Shown here piece after piece: positions 13,060 through 45,224 of a DNA stretch of 64,000 bases. This DNA is from Kitasatospora sp. DSM 101779 (GTDB lineage: Bacteria > Actinomycetota > Actinomycetes > Streptomycetales > Streptomycetaceae). The DNA lies in NCBI RefSeq assembly GCF_025655475.1, contig NZ_JAHTIK010000001.1, positions 6,930,066 through 6,994,065 of the forward strand, given 5' to 3'. How positions within the stretch are numbered: the first letter of the stretch is position 1; each line of letters begins with the position of its first letter. A program made the position numbers and the translations under genes. Under the pieces are notes generated by a model. That model searched no databases. It worked only from the letters and a program-made list of their open reading frames with translations, and had not been told where the DNA came from.

Positions 13060-13090
13060 GGCCTGCCGGCGCGCCGCCCGCCGGCAGGCC
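13060..13090. terminator. Perfect 11-bp hairpin after the LPMO pseudogene
   Basis: The arms 13060-13070 and 13080-13090 are perfectly complementary with a 9-nt loop, 26 nt after the stop. The right arm overlaps the first 32-bp repeat. Confidence 0.6.
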
Positions 13091-13144
13091 CACCACGGCC
13101 CGGCCCCGCCCGCCGGCAGGCCCACCACGGCCCGGCCCCGCCCG
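13081..13144 (+). repeat. Tandem direct repeat, 32 bp x 2
   Basis: 13081-13112 and 13113-13144 are identical and intergenic, between the LPMO pseudogene and the PAP2/diacylglycerol-kinase gene. Nothing coding is seen in this interval (13035-13258). Confidence 0.9.
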
Positions 13145-13258
13145 CCGCCGTGGCCGTCCCGCACCCGACGGTGTGGCGGACCGTCAGCCGCCCGCGGGCC
13201 GCTGCGGAGACCCGGCCGACCCGCACCGCGAGGTGAGCACGCCCCGGCCGGTACCGCC

Positions 13259-19223: not shown

Positions 19224-19229
19224 TACGGT
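19224..19229 (+). promoter_or_regulatory. Probable -10 box (TACGGT) for the receptor kinase
   Basis: TACGGT predicts transcription from about 19236, 4 nt before ATG 19240. It overlaps the alternative GTG at 19228, which argues for the ATG. Confidence 0.4.
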
Positions 19230-19239
19230 GACCGACGTC

Positions 19240-20961
19240 ATGGTGGCAGGAACGGTGGACGAGAACAGAGGCAAGGGCGGCCCCGAGGGCCAGGCCCCCC
19301 AGGACGCTGCGATACCGCAGGACGCGCGCTGGGAGCTCCCCGGCTACACGCACGAGCGCGAGCTCGGTGCGGGAGCAGCCGGGCGCGTCGTGCTGGCCAG
19401 CCACGACGCGACCGGCACCCCCGTCGCGGTCAAGTACCTCAACGGCGACCACGCCGACCACGAGAACTTCCGCACCGAGGCCGAGCTGCTCGCGGGCCTC
19501 GACTCCCCGCACGTCACCCGTCTGTACGAGTACGTGGAGGGCCCGCAGGGCGCCGCCATCGTCATGGAGCTCGTCGACGGCATCTCCCTGCGCGACCTGT
19601 TGCAGGCCGAGGGCGCCACCGGCCCCGAGGCCGCACTGGCCGTGCTCAAGGGCTCGCTGCTCGGCCTCGCCGACGCCCACCGGGCGGGCGTGGTGCACCG
19701 CGACTACAAGCCCGGCAACGTCATCGTCACCACCGAGGGCGTCTCCAAGCTGGTCGACTTCGGCATCGCGGTGCCCAGCGGCGCCAAGGGCGACATCGCC
19801 GGCACCCCCGCCTACATGGCGCCCGAGCAGTGGGCCGGCGAGCCCGCCTCGCCGCGGGGCGACGTCTACGCCGCGACCGCCACCTTCTTCGAGTGCCTGA
19901 CCGGCGCCAAGCCGTACGCGGGCACCACGCTGATGGAGCTGGCCGTCCAGCACACCGAGGCGGACATCCCCGACGAGCAGGCGCCCGAGGCGCTGCGCCC
20001 GCTGATCCGCTCCGGCCTCGCCAAGACCCCGCAGGACCGGCCGGAGGGCGCCGCCGACCTGGTCGCCGACCTGGAGGCGGTCGCCGCCGGCACGTACGGG
20101 CCCGAGTGGGAGGAGCGCGGCCGCCGCCAGCTGGCCGGCCTGGTCGCCCTGCTGCCGCTGCTGCTGCCCCACCCGCACGGGCATGCCGCCGGCAACACCT
20201 CCGTCGCCACCACCACCCTCCCGCAGGGCGCGGGCGGCGGCGTCACGGCCGTCCGCCGGTTCGGTCCGCGAGCCAAGCTGCTGAGCGCGGCCACCGGACT
20301 CGTCCTGCTCGGCGGCACCCTGGCCGGGGTCGCGGCCGCCGGAGCCTCCGACTCGACCACCACCACCGAGGTCGCCGCACCGAAGGCCACCACGACCTTC
20401 GGTGCCGACGGGCCCGTGGCGGTACCGTCGCCGAGCGCCTCGCCGTCCGGATCGCCCTCGGTGTCCGCCTCGGCCTCGGCCTCCCCGTCGGCCTCGGCGT
20501 CCCCGAGCACCTCCCCGACCACCTCGCCGTTCGCCTCGCCGAGCCCCACCCCGACCAAGAAGCCCACCACGGCCCCGCCGACCACGCCGCCGACCAGCGC
20601 CCCGCCGACCACGCCCACGACCAGTGCCCCGCCGCCGCCGACCCTGCGGGTCCTCCGGCTGAGCGTGAGCACCACCTGTGGCAACCGGTCCTACGAAGTG
20701 GTCGCCAGGATCACGGCCGCGACGGACGGTGTGGCGAGCGGCACCGTGACCGTTGCCTGGTACTCGGGCGTGAGCCGGCTGCCGGCCTCCACCGTGCAGG
20801 TCACCATCCCGAAGGGGACGAAGACCTTCACCACCACCCTGTCTGCTCCGAGCACCACGGGCTCCTGGAGCGCGCGGGTGAGCTCGAATCCGGCGGCCGA
20901 ATCGGGTCAGGGCAGCTCGTCCGGTCCCGTCAACACGAGCACCTGCGTCATCCTGACCTGA
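19240..20961 (+). CDS. Receptor-type Ser/Thr protein kinase with secreted-side domain
   Basis: 573 residues from ATG 19240 (GTG 19228 would add four). Kinase domain at about 35-285: glycine loop GAGAAG, VAVKYL Lys, HRDYKPGN with the catalytic Asp (Tyr replaces the usual Leu/Val), DFGIA and TPAYMAPEQ. The activation segment has Ser but no Thr before the GT motif, unlike typical PknB kinases. One membrane helix lies near 347-368. Outside are an 80-residue Ser/Thr/Pro linker and a beta-rich domain (about 470-573) bounded by two Cys. It is followed after 10 bp by the TVR-repeat membrane protein, its most likely substrate or partner. Confidence 0.9.
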   Translation: MVAGTVDENRGKGGPEGQAPQDAAIPQDARWELPGYTHERELGAGAAGRVVLASHDATGTPVAVKYLNGDHADHENFRTEAELLAGLDSPHVTRLYEYVEGPQGAAIVMELVDGISLRDLLQAEGATGPEAALAVLKGSLLGLADAHRAGVVHRDYKPGNVIVTTEGVSKLVDFGIAVPSGAKGDIAGTPAYMAPEQWAGEPASPRGDVYAATATFFECLTGAKPYAGTTLMELAVQHTEADIPDEQAPEALRPLIRSGLAKTPQDRPEGAADLVADLEAVAAGTYGPEWEERGRRQLAGLVALLPLLLPHPHGHAAGNTSVATTTLPQGAGGGVTAVRRFGPRAKLLSAATGLVLLGGTLAGVAAAGASDSTTTTEVAAPKATTTFGADGPVAVPSPSASPSGSPSVSASASASPSASASPSTSPTTSPFASPSPTPTKKPTTAPPTTPPTSAPPTTPTTSAPPPPTLRVLRLSVSTTCGNRSYEVVARITAATDGVASGTVTVAWYSGVSRLPASTVQVTIPKGTKTFTTTLSAPSTTGSWSARVSSNPAAESGQGSSSGPVNTSTCVILT

Positions 20962-20971
20962 GGAACGAGAC

Positions 20972-22180
20972 ATGAGCACCCCGCAGCAGCCGGACGAGGA
21001 CGCCACCGTCCGCTTCGGCTCGAAGCCGCCCCGGGCGGACCAGACCGTGCGCCTCAACGCGCCCGCCGCCGACCCGGAGGCGACCGTCCGCCTCGGCTCG
21101 TCGCCGGTGCCCGCGCCGGACCCGGAGGGCACCGTCCGCCTGGGCCCGGCGAAGCAGCCGGACCCGGACGGCACCGTGCGCCTCAACGCGCCGCGGTCGA
21201 CCCCGGACGCGACGGTCCGGCTGAACGCGCCCGCGCCCGCGCCGGACCCGGAGGGCACCGTGCGGCTCGGCCCGGCGAAGCAGGCCGACCCCGAGGGCAC
21301 CGTCCGGCTGAACGCCGCGAAGCCGGACCCGGAGGCGACCGTCCGCCTCGGCTCGTCCCCCGTGCCCGCGGCGGACCCGGACGGCACCGTCCGGCTGAAC
21401 CCCGCGCAGCCCAACCCCGAGGCGACCGTCCGGCTCGGCGGTGCCGGGGCGCGGCCCGCCCCGCAGGCGTACGTTCCGCCGCCCTCGCAGCAGCAGCCGC
21501 CGGCCGAGAGCTTCGAGAGCGCCACCTTCCTCGACCCGCAGGTCTGGCCGACCCCGCCGGTCGGCACCGCCGTCCCCGCGCCGACGCCGGCCATGGGCAC
21601 CCCCCTCACGCCCGCCATGGGCACCCCGGTCACCCCGGCCATGGGCACCCCGGTGCCCCCGGCTGCGGTCCCGGCACCCGCCGCGCAGGACGGACTGCAG
21701 CGCTTCGGGCCGGGCGTGCCCCCGCAGGCGGCCGCCGTCTGGCACGGGGCGACCGCGGTCCCGCCGGCCCCGGAGCAGCCGAAGCGCCGGCGCCGCCGCT
21801 GGCTGCTGCTGCCGCTGCTCCTGCTGATCGCGGTGCTCGCCTGGCTGGCCTGGGACCGCTACGGCCGGCCGGTCGCGGTGACCGGGGTCGCCGTCCGTAC
21901 GGACAACGCGAAGGGCCCGGCCTGCGACGGCACGGCGGTGATCACCGGAGCGATCTCCACCGAGGGCGGCGCGGGCAATGTCCGCTACCGCTGGAAGCGC
22001 AGCGACGGCACCGACTCCGGTGTCCTCACCCAGCCGGTGTCCAGCGGCCGTCGCACCACGGACGTGGTGCTCCGCTGGACCTTCCAGGGCCACGGCAGCA
22101 TGCAGGCGACGGCCACCCTGGAGATCGTCGGCCCGGGCAGCGGCACCTCCTCGGTGACCTTCCCCTACACCTGCCCCTGA
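20972..22180 (+). CDS. Single-pass membrane protein with eleven TVR(L/F) repeats
   Basis: 402 residues. Residues 8-155 hold eleven units of the form acidic-x-T-V-R-L/F, starting EDATVRF and ending EATVRLG, spaced 10-15 residues apart with Pro/Ala linkers. Residues 205-230 contain three TPAMGTP units. A basic run KRRRRR precedes the only membrane helix (about 278-297), so the repeats should be cytoplasmic. The C-terminal 105 residues are external, beta-rich and bounded by two Cys, like the kinase ectodomain. I infer that the Thr residues are kinase targets and FHA docking sites; nothing in the sequence proves this. Family not recognised. Confidence 0.85.
   Translation: MSTPQQPDEDATVRFGSKPPRADQTVRLNAPAADPEATVRLGSSPVPAPDPEGTVRLGPAKQPDPDGTVRLNAPRSTPDATVRLNAPAPAPDPEGTVRLGPAKQADPEGTVRLNAAKPDPEATVRLGSSPVPAADPDGTVRLNPAQPNPEATVRLGGAGARPAPQAYVPPPSQQQPPAESFESATFLDPQVWPTPPVGTAVPAPTPAMGTPLTPAMGTPVTPAMGTPVPPAAVPAPAAQDGLQRFGPGVPPQAAAVWHGATAVPPAPEQPKRRRRRWLLLPLLLLIAVLAWLAWDRYGRPVAVTGVAVRTDNAKGPACDGTAVITGAISTEGGAGNVRYRWKRSDGTDSGVLTQPVSSGRRTTDVVLRWTFQGHGSMQATATLEIVGPGSGTSSVTFPYTCP
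20999..21440 (+). repeat. Degenerate coding repeat, eleven TVR(L/F) units
   Basis: Eleven copies of ACCGT(C/G)CG(C/G)CT or a close variant are spread over about 440 bp, with unit lengths of 30-45 bp. Several units occur as longer duplicated blocks, for example GSSPVPA and LGPAKQ each twice, which suggests growth by internal duplication. Confidence 0.9.
21584..21659 (+). repeat. Tandem 24-bp repeat, 3 copies (TPAMGTP[LV])
   Basis: ATGGGCACCCC recurs at 21593, 21617 and 21641, exactly 24 bp apart, within the TVR-repeat gene. Confidence 0.9.
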
Positions 22181-22331: not shown

Positions 22332-23450
22332 ATGATCCTGCGCTCCGCGAAGCGGCTCGTGCTCCTTCTGCCGGTGCTCTGGCTGACCTCGCTCACCTAC
22401 GTGGCCTGCGCCGTGCTGCTCGTCCACCTGCGCCACACCGATCCGGAGGTCGAGCGCGAGATCGCGCAGGGCGCGGACCGGTGGCCGGCCCTGGCCGCAC
22501 TCGCGGTGGCCACCGCGGTCGCCACCGCCTGGGCCCGGCGGCCCGACCGGCGTCGCCGGTTCCCCTGGCACCGGCTGGCGGCGCGGGCGCTCGCGCTGTT
22601 CGTCACGGCCGTGTCCGTCGCGCTGCTCTCGTACCACCGGGGCGGCCCCGACTTCGACCACCTGCTGGGCCTCGGCGCCGTCACCACCTTCGCGGTCGTG
22701 CTGTGCATCCTCGGCTGGGGACTGCTCAACCTCGGCCCGGCCCGGGCGGCGGCCGGCGCGGTGGCCGCGCTGGCGGCCTCGGCGCTCTGGCTGGCGCGCG
22801 CGCCCGAGCGTTCAACCGTCGCGGTACTGGCCGCGGCGGCGCTGCTGGTGGCGCTCGGCACCACGGCGGCCGCGGTCTGGCGGGTGCCGCGGGTGCGGCT
22901 GCTGGCCGGGCTGCCCCCGGTGGAGTGGACCGGCGGCGGCGTCCGACCGCCGGAGCGCCGGCCGGTGCCCGGCGAGATGTGGTGGGCGGACGTGCCGTTC
23001 GAGGAGTCCGGCGGGTCCAAGGACCGGCCGGTGCTGGTGGTGCGGGTCCTGGAGGGCCGGCTGGAGGTGCTGAGGAGCACCAGCCAGGACCGGCTCGGCC
23101 GCAGCGACCACATCCGGCTGCCCACCGGTGCCTGGAACCCGGAGGCGGCCCACGACAGCTGCCTCGACCTTCGGCTGCGCACCCTGACGGCGGACCGGCT
23201 GCGCCGCTACGCCGGGCCGTGCCCGGTCGGGGTGTGGCGGGTGGTCCGCGGCCGCACCCTGCCGCTGGTGAAGCCGCCGCGGACGGTCCGCCGGGCAGGG
23301 GCCGCCGGGCAGGCCGCGCCGCGGCAGCGCCGTCCCGTCGTCGAACCCGTTGCCGAGCCCGCCTCCGAACCGGGCGGCGCGCCCCGCGGCCTCCGCAGGC
23401 CACCGCGCGGGGGCGACTCCGGGAAGGCGGGGGCCGGCGGCACCGGCTGA
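22332..23450 (+). CDS. Multi-pass membrane protein with PemK/MazF-like C-terminal domain
   Basis: 372 residues. About six hydrophobic segments fill residues 7-195. From about 212 to 305 the sequence follows the PemK/MazF pattern: PVPGEMWWADVPFEE, GGSKDRPVLVVRV, a TSQDRLGR segment, IRLPTGAWN and SCLDLRLRTL. The last 60 residues are a basic, Pro-rich tail. MazF-type domains are usually free mRNA-cutting toxins of about 110 residues. Here the domain is tethered to the membrane and no small antitoxin gene is adjacent, so it may be a regulated ribonuclease or a non-toxic binding domain. Confidence 0.7.
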   Translation: MILRSAKRLVLLLPVLWLTSLTYVACAVLLVHLRHTDPEVEREIAQGADRWPALAALAVATAVATAWARRPDRRRRFPWHRLAARALALFVTAVSVALLSYHRGGPDFDHLLGLGAVTTFAVVLCILGWGLLNLGPARAAAGAVAALAASALWLARAPERSTVAVLAAAALLVALGTTAAAVWRVPRVRLLAGLPPVEWTGGGVRPPERRPVPGEMWWADVPFEESGGSKDRPVLVVRVLEGRLEVLRSTSQDRLGRSDHIRLPTGAWNPEAAHDSCLDLRLRTLTADRLRRYAGPCPVGVWRVVRGRTLPLVKPPRTVRRAGAAGQAAPRQRRPVVEPVAEPASEPGGAPRGLRRPPRGGDSGKAGAGGTG

Positions 23451-27236: not shown

Positions 27237-29588
27237 ATGGGAGAGCGACCCGCCGCGCTCACCGCGCCGCAGCTGGTACTCGAGACCGAAGGCGACTCGC
27301 AGGTCATCAGCCCGAGCCGCACCTACCACGTGGGCCGCGACCCCACGAGCGAGGTCTTCCTCACCGACCCCCGGGTGTCCTGGCACCACGCCGTGCTGCA
27401 CGCCGACGGCGACCACTGGGCGCTCGACGACACCGGCTCCACCAACGGCACGTACACCGACGGGCACCGGATCCGGCACCTCGACGTCGGCCCCGGCAGC
27501 GAGCTGCGGTTCGGCAGCGCCGCCGACGGCCCCCGGTGCACCCTGCGCGAGCTGCCCCGGAAACCGGCCGTCGACCGGCAGCCGTCCGCGCTGACCGCCA
27601 TCACCGGCTCGATGCGGCCGCCGACCACCGTCCGCCCGCTCCCGGCCAAGGTCGTCCGGATCGGCCGCGCCCTCGACAACGAGCTGGTCGTCGGGGACCT
27701 GTCGGTCTCCCGCCGGCACGCCGAACTGCGCGCCCGCTCCGACGGCCGCTGGGAGATCGTCGACCTCGGCAGCCACAACGGCACCTACCTCAACGGCCAG
27801 CCGGTGCTCGACGCCCTGGTCGGCGAGGGCGACCTGATCGGCATCGGCCACTCGGTGTTCTGCCTGGTCGGCGACGAACTGCAGCAGTTCGTCGACACCG
27901 GCGACGTCGACCTCGACGTCGACGGCCTCAGCGTCACCGTGGCCGGCGGCCGCCGCCTGCTCGACTCGGTCACCTTCCCGGTCGGGCAGAAGATGCTGCT
28001 CGCCGTGGCCGGCCCGAGCGGCGCCGGCAAGTCCACCCTGCTCAACGCCCTCACCGGGCTGCGCCCCGCGGACGAGGGCGCCGTCCGCTACGACGGCCGC
28101 GACCTCTACCGCGACTACGCGGAGCTGCGCCGCCGGATCGGCCTCGTCCCGCAGGACGACATCCTGCACACCCAGCTGAAGGTGCGCCGCGCCCTGCGGT
28201 ACGCCGCCGAACTGCGGTTCCCCGACGACACCGCCGCCGCCGAGCGGGAGGCCAGGGTGGAGGAGGTGATCCACGAACTCGGCCTGGAGAAGCGCGCCGA
28301 CCAGGTGATCTCCAGCCTCTCCGGCGGCCAGCGCAAGCGCGTCAGCGTGGCTCTGGAACTGCTCACCAAGCCCTCGCTGCTCTTCCTGGACGAGCCGACC
28401 TCAGGCCTCGACCCCGGCATGGACCGCTCGGTCATGCAGATGCTCCGCAACCTCGCGGACGACGGCCGCACCGTCATCGTCGTGACGCACAGCGTGCTCA
28501 GCCTCGACGTGTGCGACCGGCTGCTCCTCCTCGCCCCCGGCGGCCGGATCGCCTTCTACGGCCCCCCCGGCGAGACCCTCGACTTCTTCGGCTTCCAGCA
28601 GTGGCCGGACGCCTTCGACGCCTTCGAGAACGACACCGAGCGCGACTGGGCCGGCCAGTACCGCTCCTCGCCCTCCTACCGCCGCTACATCGCCGGCGCC
28701 ATGGACCACTCGCGGCCGGCCGCGCTGCCCGCCCCGGCCGCCGCCGAGACACCGGCCGCCAAGCCTCCGCGCCCGCAGCGCTGGCACCACCAGGTCGGCA
28801 CGCTCGTCCGCCGCTACGCCACCGCGCTCACCGCCGACCGCACCTTCCTCGCGGTCATGATCGCGCTGCCGTTCGTCATGGGCGTGATGGCCAGGGCCCT
28901 GGCAGGCAAGAAGCTCGCCGAGGACAGCGTCTTCAACGCCCTGCTGATCCTCTGCGTCGGCGCGGTGCTCACCGGCGCCGCCAACTCGGTGCGCGAACTC
29001 GTCAAGGAACGCGTCATCTACCAGCGAGAACGCGCCGTCGGCCTGTCCAGATCGGCGTACCTCTGGTCCAAGATCATCGTGCTCGGCACCGTCACCGTCG
29101 TCCAGGCGGTGGTGCTCACCATGGTCGCGCTGCTCGGCGTCGACCTGCGTCCACAGGGCGGCGGTGGCGTCCTCATGCCACCGCTGGTGGAGATCACCCT
29201 GGCCGTCGCCCTGCTCGCCTTCACCGCCATGATGCTCGGCCTCCTCATCTCCGCCCTGGTGAAGAAGGAGGAGGTGACCATGCCCCTGCTGGTGCTGGTC
29301 GCCATCGTCCAGGTGGTGTTCTGCGGCGCCCTGATCCAGCTCAACAGCACCCCCGTGCTCGCCCAGCTCTCCTGGCTCGTCCCCTCCCGCTGGGCGTTCG
29401 CCGCCATGGCCTCCACCGTCGACCTGCACGCCTCCGTGCCCAAACCGCTGACCGCGGACCCGCTCTTCCGGCACGAGGCCTCGATCTGGCTGCTGGACAT
29501 GGGCATGATGGTGGTGCTGAGCATCGTCTTCGGCCTGCTGGTCCTGCGCCTGCTGCGCCGTCACGAACCCGCCGTCATGCGGAGGTGA
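27237..29588 (+). CDS. Double-FHA ABC transporter (Rv1747-like)
   Basis: 783 residues in one chain. FHA1 is at about 15-100 (VGRDP, WHHAVL, GSTNGTY) and FHA2 at about 135-205 (IGRALDNELVV, SRRHAEL, GSHNGTYLNG). The ABC ATPase has Walker A GPSGAGKST near 259, signature LSGGQRKR near 360 and Walker B LLFLDEPTSGLD near 381. An ABC-2 permease with about six helices lies at 530-775. FHA domains bind phospho-Thr. The inter-FHA linker carries TTVRP at residues 130-134. The layout and the kinase two genes downstream match the known mycobacterial Rv1747/PknF pair. Cargo unknown; lipid or glycan export is plausible. Confidence 0.92.
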   Translation: MGERPAALTAPQLVLETEGDSQVISPSRTYHVGRDPTSEVFLTDPRVSWHHAVLHADGDHWALDDTGSTNGTYTDGHRIRHLDVGPGSELRFGSAADGPRCTLRELPRKPAVDRQPSALTAITGSMRPPTTVRPLPAKVVRIGRALDNELVVGDLSVSRRHAELRARSDGRWEIVDLGSHNGTYLNGQPVLDALVGEGDLIGIGHSVFCLVGDELQQFVDTGDVDLDVDGLSVTVAGGRRLLDSVTFPVGQKMLLAVAGPSGAGKSTLLNALTGLRPADEGAVRYDGRDLYRDYAELRRRIGLVPQDDILHTQLKVRRALRYAAELRFPDDTAAAEREARVEEVIHELGLEKRADQVISSLSGGQRKRVSVALELLTKPSLLFLDEPTSGLDPGMDRSVMQMLRNLADDGRTVIVVTHSVLSLDVCDRLLLLAPGGRIAFYGPPGETLDFFGFQQWPDAFDAFENDTERDWAGQYRSSPSYRRYIAGAMDHSRPAALPAPAAAETPAAKPPRPQRWHHQVGTLVRRYATALTADRTFLAVMIALPFVMGVMARALAGKKLAEDSVFNALLILCVGAVLTGAANSVRELVKERVIYQRERAVGLSRSAYLWSKIIVLGTVTVVQAVVLTMVALLGVDLRPQGGGGVLMPPLVEITLAVALLAFTAMMLGLLISALVKKEEVTMPLLVLVAIVQVVFCGALIQLNSTPVLAQLSWLVPSRWAFAAMASTVDLHASVPKPLTADPLFRHEASIWLLDMGMMVVLSIVFGLLVLRLLRRHEPAVMRR

Positions 29589-29594
29589 CCGCCG

Positions 29595-30125
29595 ATGACA
29601 GCCCCGTACGAGTTCCAGCCCACCCATGTCGCGCCCGCCGACGGGCTGCAGACCTGGGTGAGCCCGGACCCGTCCCGGCCGTCCGTGCGGCTCGACCCGC
29701 TGCTGCCCGTCCGGCTCGCCGACAGCAGCGGCAACTGGGCGCGGATCGTCTGCTCCAACGGCTGGTCGGCCTGGGTGGACGGCCGGCTGCTGGTCACCCT
29801 GCCGCACCCGCCGTCCGGCACCGACCACCCGCTGACCCCGCTGGAGGACCCGCGCCCGCTGCTCGCCGCCCTCGAGAAGGCTCTGGCGACCTACCGCCGC
29901 CTCGTCGGCGAGTACGCGGACGGCCTGATCGACCTGGAGACCTTCCGCGACCGCAGCCGCAACCTGCGGCTCGGCGCCGTCATCGACGGGTCCTCCGCCT
30001 GGCTGCTCGACCTCGACCAGGGCCGCTGGTTCTTCAGCGACGGCGCCAGGATGCAGACGTACGCCACCGTCGACCCGCCCTCCGCCAGGCGGTCCGCGGC
30101 CGGCGCCCGGGGTGACGCCGGATGA
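29595..30125 (+). CDS. Hypothetical protein in the FHA-ABC/kinase operon
   Basis: 176 residues without signal peptide or membrane helix. The first 70 residues look like a small SH3-like barrel (PLLPVRLADSSGNWARIVC, then NGWSAWVDGRLL). Residues 85-125 are helical (EKALATYRRLVGEYADGLIDLETFRDR), followed by a strand-rich end (GSSAWLLDLDQGRWFF). It starts 6 bp after the transporter and overlaps the kinase start by 4 bp (ATGA), so it is probably an adaptor in the same complex. That role is inferred from position alone. Confidence 0.75.
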   Translation: MTAPYEFQPTHVAPADGLQTWVSPDPSRPSVRLDPLLPVRLADSSGNWARIVCSNGWSAWVDGRLLVTLPHPPSGTDHPLTPLEDPRPLLAALEKALATYRRLVGEYADGLIDLETFRDRSRNLRLGAVIDGSSAWLLDLDQGRWFFSDGARMQTYATVDPPSARRSAAGARGDAG

Positions 30126-31309
30126 CGACCGCCGCACCGGCCGACCTCACCGGCCACCAACTCGCCGCCTACCGGTTGGAGCAGCTGATCGGCCGCGGCG
30201 GCATGGCGGTGGTCTACCGCGCCGAGGACCTCCGCCTCGGCCGGACGGTCGCGGTCAAGCTGCTCGCCCCCGACCTCGCCCGCAACGACGTCTTCCGCGA
30301 GCGGTTCGCCCGCGAGTCCAAGGCCGCCGCGGCCATCGACCACCCGCACATCGTGCCGGTCTACGAGGCCGGCGAGGCCGACGGACTGCTCTACATCGCC
30401 ATGCGCTACGTCCGCGGCCGCGACCTGCGCGCCCTGCTCGACCGCGAGGGCCCGCTCTCGCTGCGCCAGACCGTGCGGATCACCACCCAGGTCGCCTCCG
30501 CGCTGGACGCCGCGCACGGCCACGACCTCGTCCACCGCGACGTCAAGCCCGGCAACATCCTGGTCGCCGAGGGCACCGACTCCGAGCACCCCGAGCACGT
30601 CTACCTCACCGACTTCGGACTCACCAAGAAGTCCCTCTCGCTCTCCGGCCTGACCACCGTCGGCCAGTTCGTCGGCACCCTGGACTACGTCGCCCCCGAG
30701 CAGATCAACGGCAAGCCGGTGGACGGCCGCTGCGACGTCTACAGCCTCGCCTGCGTGGTCTACGAGATGCTCTCCGGCACCCCGCCCTACGAGCGCGACG
30801 ACGACCTCGCCCAGCTGTGGGCGCACCTCAACGACGACCCGCCGCACCTCAGCGAGCAGCGCCCGAACCTGCCCGCCGCCCTGGACGACGTGCTGATCCG
30901 GGCACTCGCCAAGGCGCCGGACGACCGGTACGACAGCTGTCTGGCCTTCGTCGGCGCCCTGCACGGCGTGGAGCACGTCGCGGCGATCCCGGTACCGACG
31001 CCGACCGAACTCGTCCCGCAGCTGCCCGAGTCCGTCGCACCGCCCGAACTCGCCGCACCTCCCGAGGCCGCCGCACCTCCCGAGGCCGCTGCTCCGCCCG
31101 AGTCCGCCGCACCGGTCGAGCCGGCCGCGCCGCGGGAGGCCGTCGCGCCGTCCGAGCCGGCGGTGTCGTCCGAGCCGGCTGCGCCGCGGGGGGCCGTCGC
31201 GCCCCGGAAGTCCGTGGTGCCGCCCGTCCCGCCCCCGCCGGCCTCCGGTTCCCGCCCGCCGGAGCCGCCCGACTGGGCGCTGCCGGTCTACGGCACCGAC
31301 CGCGACTGA
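30122..31309 (+). CDS. Cytoplasmic Ser/Thr protein kinase of the FHA-ABC operon
   Basis: 395 residues. Kinase domain at about 15-280: glycine loop GRGGMAVVY, VAVKLL Lys, HRDVKPGN, DFGLT, and an activation segment with SGLTTVGQFVGT before YVAPEQ, which includes the usual double Thr. The tail (about 290-395) is Pro/Ala/Glu/Ser repeats with no membrane helix, unlike most PknB-type kinases. It is translationally coupled to the gene before it and should phosphorylate the FHA-ABC transporter or its linker. The 3' end overlaps the convergent streptophobe gene by 22 bp. Confidence 0.92.
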   Translation: MTTAAPADLTGHQLAAYRLEQLIGRGGMAVVYRAEDLRLGRTVAVKLLAPDLARNDVFRERFARESKAAAAIDHPHIVPVYEAGEADGLLYIAMRYVRGRDLRALLDREGPLSLRQTVRITTQVASALDAAHGHDLVHRDVKPGNILVAEGTDSEHPEHVYLTDFGLTKKSLSLSGLTTVGQFVGTLDYVAPEQINGKPVDGRCDVYSLACVVYEMLSGTPPYERDDDLAQLWAHLNDDPPHLSEQRPNLPAALDDVLIRALAKAPDDRYDSCLAFVGALHGVEHVAAIPVPTPTELVPQLPESVAPPELAAPPEAAAPPEAAAPPESAAPVEPAAPREAVAPSEPAVSSEPAAPRGAVAPRKSVVPPVPPPPASGSRPPEPPDWALPVYGTDRD

Positions 31310-44936: not shown

Positions 44937-45224
44937 TCAGGAGGACGAGTCCCCGCCGACCGCGACGCCGATGCCGTAACCGGCGGCGTCGCCGCCCACG
45001 GCGAAGGCCGCCTCCTCCGCGGAGGAGGCGTCGCCGCCCACCGCGAGCGCCTGCTCGAGGAGCGCGTCGGCGTCGCCGCCGACCGCGAGGGCCCCGCCCT
45101 CGGTGGAGCTGGCGTCGCCGCCGACGGCCAGCGAGCCGTGGGCGGCGGCCGAGCCTGCGGCGCCGAAGACGGCGAGGCCGGAGATGAGCGCGGCGGTGGT
45201 GATCCTGGCGAGGCTGGAGCGCAT
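44937..45224 (-). CDS. Small secreted protein with five AVGGD repeats
   Basis: 95 residues with AGGAGG before the ATG. A signal peptide ends near AAGSAAAH (about residue 29). The mature part is five units of about 12-15 residues with core AVGGDA: LAVGGDASST, LAVGGDADAL, LAVGGDASSA, FAVGGDAAGY and VAVGGDSSS. It has no Cys or Trp. The regular Gly/Asp pattern could form a small beta-solenoid or an acidic self-assembling peptide; that is inference. Family not recognised. Confidence 0.75.
   Translation of the reverse strand: MRSSLARITTAALISGLAVFGAAGSAAAHGSLAVGGDASSTEGGALAVGGDADALLEQALAVGGDASSAEEAAFAVGGDAAGYGIGVAVGGDSSS

Follow-up and report, generated by a model that had tools for sequence, protein, structure and literature searches.

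Which role does a membrane protein with eleven threonine-containing units play beside a receptor kinase? The question is raised by a gene pair in the 64,000-nucleotide stretch of DNA of the soil bacterium Kitasatospora sp. DSM 101779 analysed in this work (the window). A preliminary description of this DNA had proposed that the units are a dense array of phosphorylation and FHA docking sites that counts or amplifies the signal of the neighbouring kinase. For bacterial Ser/Thr kinases, the usual descriptions mention one or few phosphothreonine docking sites, often located on the kinase itself.

The receptor kinase

The first gene of the pair has the following features.

19240-20961, + strand: transmembrane Ser/Thr kinase (Pfam Pkinase, E 8e-42; ATG start, alternative GTG start at 19228)
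approximately 19345-20046: kinase domain
approximately 20272-20343: transmembrane segment, followed by a Ser/Pro/Thr-rich stalk and an Ig-like ectodomain
20623-20958, + strand: seven-stranded Ig-like ectodomain (AlphaFold2 pLDDT 74.7, pTM 0.66)

The ATG start at 19240 agrees with that of the homologue L031. The motifs PVAVK, HRDYKPGN, DFG and APE are intact, as expected of an active Hanks-type Ser/Thr kinase, and HRD and DFG are retained across the kinase homologues; we predict that the kinase is an active enzyme of this type. There is one transmembrane segment, and the stalk and the domain beyond it are extracellular. Classification as a Stk1/PknB-type PASTA receptor kinase was rejected, as the score against NF033483 was 181.6 bits (cut-off 450), a PASTA domain was not found in the protein and an Ig-like ectodomain stands in its place. 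The activation loop does not have the usual Thr pair. Many kinase homologues carry an A-x-T-x-L segment between the kinase domain and the transmembrane segment (e.g. LATTVLG, LASTVLR; approximately 20190-20225 in the window), which is a possible autophosphorylation site. The sequence RRFGPR precedes the transmembrane segment of the window kinase and resembles the RFGPGV of the partner (see below).

The membrane partner

The last base of the kinase stop codon is 20961 and the partner begins with the ATG at 20972, which leaves 10 bp between the genes. The preliminary description of a transmembrane kinase followed at this distance by a single-pass protein was confirmed, and the case for it proved stronger than first described. 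The partner is organised as follows.

20972-22180, + strand: single-pass partner protein of 402 aa (disordered cytoplasmic N-terminus with the threonine array, transmembrane helix, Ig-like ectodomain)
21005-21436, + strand: array of eleven TVR[L/F] units, mostly [DE]-x-T-V-R-[L/F] (Thr codons at 21005, 21044, 21083, 21131, 21173, 21212, 21257, 21299, 21338, 21386 and 21425)
21518-21547, + strand: second conserved Thr site, SATFLDPQVW (Thr codon at 21524)
21701-21718, + strand: juxtamembrane motif RFGPGV (invariant in 25/25 aligned homologues)
21794-21862, + strand: transmembrane helix, with RRRRR just before it (AlphaFold2 helix at residues 275-297; positive-inside rule)
21872-22174, + strand: Ig-like ectodomain (AlphaFold2 pLDDT >90; two invariant Cys, 318 and 401)

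Pfam gave nothing usable for the partner. The AlphaFold2 model, obtained with an alignment of the window protein and public homologues, shows residues 1-270 as disordered (pLDDT ~35), a transmembrane helix at residues 275-297 and an Ig-like domain at residues 301-401 (pLDDT >90). Because arginines precede the helix, the positive-inside rule places the repeats in the cytoplasm, and the threonine array is predicted to lie on that side of the membrane. In the juxtamembrane region, RF/YGPGV was found in 78 of 82 family members, and the motif RFGPGV...VWHG is near-invariant family-wide, exceeding the repeats in conservation.

The threonine array

Counting confirmed eleven TVR(L/F) units in the partner, ten TVRL and one TVRF, spanning residues 12-155 (Thr 12, 25, 38, 54, 68, 81, 96, 110, 123, 139 and 152). 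These units hold 11 of the 13 Thr present in residues 1-165. In 20,000 shuffles, the mean number of units was 0.006 and the maximum 1. A tandem two-unit pattern (ACCGTNCGNCTN-N{20,48}-ACNGTNCGNCTN) matched eight times in the 8.5-Mb genome, always at this locus (reversed control, 0), and no TVRL arrays were found in the rest of the genome. Searching 396 other actinobacterial genomes revealed isolated TVRL pairs in ten of them and no arrays, the scatter being similar in the reversed control. The array DNA has a higher-order period of 126 bp, and the spacing of the units is irregular. Elsewhere in the window there are a perfect 32-bp tandem repeat (13074-13147) and a 42-bp repeat of 3.3 copies (44985-45122).

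Conservation of the threonine sites

The preliminary description would have been refuted by homologues in which the Thr is gone and the remainder of the repeat is retained. We searched the N-terminal regions of the homologues for x-V-[RQHK]-L words with x left unconditioned (Thr background 9.3%), and x was Thr in 201 of 203 words, Pro in one, Ala in one and Ser in none. In these units V is found at +1, R, Q, E, H or K at +2 and L/F at +3, while D/E are enriched at -2 and -4. When the codons of the window were compared with those of its two nearest relatives, 31 synonymous and 0 nonsynonymous differences were counted at the T/V/R codons, versus 54 and 79 in the linkers (Fisher 6e-11); the comparisons were pairwise and involved three related sequences, so the counts are not fully independent. 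The pattern indicates that T-V-R is under purifying selection, and the Thr was kept together with the rest of the repeat.

At the second site, SAT[VFLM]L[DGA]..W, the Thr is present in 59/59 homologues in which the site is recognisable, including members without any TVxL unit. Several homologues, chiefly in genus g10, retain the SATVL..W site and no TVxL unit. The number of units among relatives ranges from 0 to approximately 14 (pattern count), with one or few sites in most of them, and high counts sit in well-separated parts of the kinase tree.

The site context fits the preferences that the preliminary description had cited for mycobacterial kinases and FHA domains, that is, acidic residues before the Thr and a hydrophobic residue at +3. 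PknA-dependent sites of Mycobacterium tuberculosis are acidic ahead of the Thr and have Leu/Val at +3 (PMC7164672), and pThr237 of Rv2623, in the sequence pTRVV, mediates binding to FHA-I of Rv1747 (PMC5549992). The array has the hallmarks of an FHA ligand (pThr-x-x-hydrophobic): Thr is kept, Ser is absent, L/F stands at +3 and the region is disordered. This suggests that the units are candidate sites of the FHA-ligand type.

Distribution and pairing

Partner homologues are present in 87 of 200 Streptomycetaceae genomes (7 of 17 genera), in a second family of the same order and in several families of the class. The pairing claimed for the window extends to the relatives: in nearly all of the approximately 80 Streptomycetaceae partner loci examined, the gene immediately upstream, in the same orientation, encodes a kinase, mostly with a gap of approximately 10-140 bp or a 4-bp overlap. 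The arrangement of the pair is operon-like. At the exceptions (e.g. L040, L057, L094 and L098), no kinase was matched by the pattern or the frames are disrupted. In L006/L040 (G181), the array and the ectodomain are in different frames, reflecting a frameshift or an assembly error.

Arrays of other composition occur further away. L179, from a separate family of the class, has a TVHL/TVYL array, and L155, from another family of the order, has T-[EQ]-R-M units; both have a same-strand kinase nearby. The threonine arrays of the distant relatives L155, L156 and L179, each near a same-strand kinase, include A-T-V-A-V units.

In family f91 (L170-L177), the partners consist of an N-terminal pseudokinase, a T-L-L-[DH] site, RFGPGV, a transmembrane segment and a partner-type ectodomain, with one or two same-strand kinases adjoining. 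Pfam found nothing in these pseudokinases. Their N-terminal part can be aligned with the kinase domain (prob 91.6%, E 8e-7, 65 columns), with HRD changed to HGA/HGS and DFG to ERG, so that the catalytic residues are lost. These proteins allow the interpretation that the partner is related to kinases and has given up catalysis, its domain having been swapped for a phosphosite array in Streptomycetales. The direction, from pseudokinase to array, is tentative.

The shared ectodomain

The ectodomain profiles of the kinase and the partner aligned over approximately 100 columns in hhalign (prob 93-94%, E 1.6e-7 to 3.7e-7; reversed control 0.2%), and we regard the two profiles as those of homologous domains. 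A Foldseek/PDB fold search with the partner ectodomain returned only generic Ig-like folds (CARDB, PKD, GH2), and a specific identity based on these matches was consequently dropped. A distantly related form of the ectodomain (E 1e-6 to 1e-4) is also present in other Streptomycetaceae kinases (L158-L161, genus g10 and relatives), which supports the view that it has spread among receptor kinases.

An FHA-ABC exporter downstream of the pair

Two further genes of the window concern a possible reader of the array.

27237-29588, + strand: FHA-FHA-ABC exporter of Rv1747 architecture, candidate reader (Pfam FHA twice, ABC_tran, ABC2_membrane)
30122-31309, + strand: second Ser/Thr kinase, companion of the FHA-ABC gene (Pfam Pkinase, 1.5e-47)

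The FHA-ABC gene lies approximately 5 kb downstream of the partner. Its product is of the Rv1747 type, with two N-terminal FHA domains, an ABC ATPase, an ABC2 membrane domain and intact phosphate-binding residues; the latter (GR, S..H, NG) are invariant in both FHA domains of the linked orthologues. A same-strand FHA-ABC gene was found 0.5-6 kb downstream of the pair in 16 loci of the genus (approximately 0.5 kb in nine). In the kinase tree, all of these loci belong to a single clade, which itself contains a break, and the linkage counts as one event at clade level. Unlinked FHA-ABC orthologues are present in most of the remaining genomes of the genus, and most unlinked copies have a kinase beside them. 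The exporter was therefore rejected as an obligate third component: the linkage is confined to one clade with an internal break, and the unlinked copies have their own kinase.

The number of repeats is higher in the genomes with linkage (mean 6.4 vs. 2.6, Mann-Whitney 1.7e-4), which is not independent evidence, as the linked cases form one clade. With the linkage amounting to one event in one clade, and with a separate companion kinase next to the FHA-ABC gene at other loci, identification of the exporter as the reader is weak; the association may serve as a lead, not as proof. Ten FHA domains, distributed over about seven proteins, are encoded in the genome, and any of these proteins, or none, could be the reader.

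Other observations concern this neighbourhood. The linker between the two FHA domains of the exporter reads PPTTVRPLPAK in high-repeat genomes and PPSSV[RM]PLP in genomes where the genes are adjacent. The tail of the second kinase contains a proline-rich repeat (31001-31240). Directly downstream of the partner (22337-23450) lies a membrane protein with no Pfam match, whose C-terminal part (PGEMWWADVPF...KDRPVLVVRV) is reminiscent of PemK/MazF-like proteins.

Proposed mechanism and alternatives

The homologous ectodomains, the near-invariant RFGPGV and the dead-kinase relatives make the partner look like a co-receptor and phosphothreonine adaptor. We consider it somewhat probable that it works as a co-receptor with multi-site phosphothreonine docking, the valency being set by the number of repeats. 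The two genes would encode one receptor, with kinase and partner traversing the membrane side by side. Since their ectodomains are homologous, they would probably detect the same envelope cue or pair with each other through these domains. The activated kinase would phosphorylate the Thr of the [DE]-x-T-V-[RQHK]-L units and of the SAT[FVLM]L[DGA]..W site of the partner, and the resulting pThr-x-x-[L/F] sites would dock FHA-domain proteins. Repeat number would determine how many of these are recruited, one or few sites being available in most relatives and 11 here. In this clade the likeliest reader would be the downstream Rv1747-like FHA-FHA-ABC exporter, which may be clustered or gated at the receptor. 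The near-invariant RFGPGV has as yet no place in this model.

Among the readings considered, phospho-docking is the best, and it survived the single test to which sequence comparison lends itself. The proposal of the preliminary description is upheld in part: Thr conservation, kinase pairing and site context favour a docking array, while a fixed counter is disfavoured by a unit number varying from 0 to approximately 14, which fits tuning of valency. Not contained in that description are the shared ectodomain, RFGPGV, the second Thr site, the FHA-ABC gene in the vicinity and the relatives with a pseudokinase.

Alternatively, the TVRL units might be kinase-docking or substrate-trap sites, the partner acting as a decoy or inhibitor that tethers the kinase, with phosphate incidental or absent. 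The strict pairing with the kinase speaks for this reading, and the catalytically dead kinase domain of the f91 partners makes a regulatory co-receptor plausible. However, a docking motif needs no invariant Thr that is never replaced by Ser, and the fixed Thr, with hydrophobic residues at +1 and +3 and a variable +2, resembles an acceptor site. We consider this explanation unlikely.

The repeats might also be phosphorylated with an electrostatic or condensate output (bulk charge or phase separation at the membrane) and no specific FHA reader. A charge switch requires neither V at +1 nor L/F at +3, nor the exclusion of Ser. This makes such an output rather improbable here, despite an array that is dense, disordered and variable in number, as it should be for that purpose.

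It is very unlikely that the units, instead of being phosphosites, have a structural role or self-assemble (as a beta-zipper, an amyloid signalling motif or a solenoid). To judge from the residues, a short beta strand of T-V-R-L flanked by D-P and G/N-A-P turns is conceivable, but AlphaFold2 gives a pLDDT of ~35 and no strands over the array, the unit spacing is irregular and Thr is kept more strictly than the +2 residue. A solenoid or amyloid fold was rejected on the basis of the AlphaFold2 prediction, which shows no structure. Finally, a functionless low-complexity expansion, to which the wide copy-number variation and the 126-bp DNA period would be suited, is hardly credible, being contradicted by the codon test (31:0 at T/V/R), by high repeat numbers well separated in the kinase tree and by the recurrence of arrays in other families.

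Comparison with known systems

The docking model has a close parallel in the Rv1747/PknF/Rv2623 system of M. tuberculosis, where a pThr-x-x-hydrophobic sequence (pTRVV) docks the FHA domain of an ABC exporter alongside a kinase, and an exporter of the same architecture is encoded in the window. The FHA-linker module of Rv1747 condenses upon phosphorylation by PknF (PMC9312465). There, however, the pThr belongs to the transporter itself or to a soluble stress protein, whereas here an up-to-11-fold array is carried by a separate membrane co-receptor with the ectodomain type of the kinase. The juxtamembrane domain of StkP has several pThr and that of M. tuberculosis PknB docks FhaA (PMC12077195). 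Those pThr are likewise membrane-proximal in a receptor kinase, but the candidate sites described here are in trans, on a second protein, and variable in copy number. In the threonine phosphorylation pathway of the type VI secretion system (T6SS), the membrane kinase PpkA phosphorylates Thr of a partner (TssL or Fha) and an FHA protein reads it (PMC3953482), an order of events resembling the one proposed here; condensates were reported in one species (PMC12607579). By contrast, no T6SS is involved in our case, and neither a shared ectodomain nor a repeat array is found in that pathway. A separate array-bearing co-receptor of such form was not found in the literature, in which subscription journals were incompletely covered.

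LAT and the ITAM chains are eukaryotic multi-site adaptors. The resemblance is in the way of working only: a receptor-associated membrane protein has a disordered tail with several phospho-docking sites. Those are tyrosine/SH2 systems, this one would be threonine/FHA, and there is no homology. As a tentative and on balance doubtful extension of the docking model, the pair would be a bacterial counterpart of LAT, in which a kinase and a co-receptor with an evolvable phosphothreonine docking array assemble FHA membrane clusters, with valency given by repeat number and possibly with a decayed kinase as the origin of the co-receptor.

If the docking model is true, bacteria would have multivalent phospho-signalling by way of a dedicated membrane partner, whose pThr-type array is strictly conserved but varies in the number of units. 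The evolution of valency would become testable in relatives with 0 to 14 units, and actinobacterial receptor kinases of unknown function would gain a candidate substrate. For ligand discovery, the ectodomain type common to both proteins offers a starting point.
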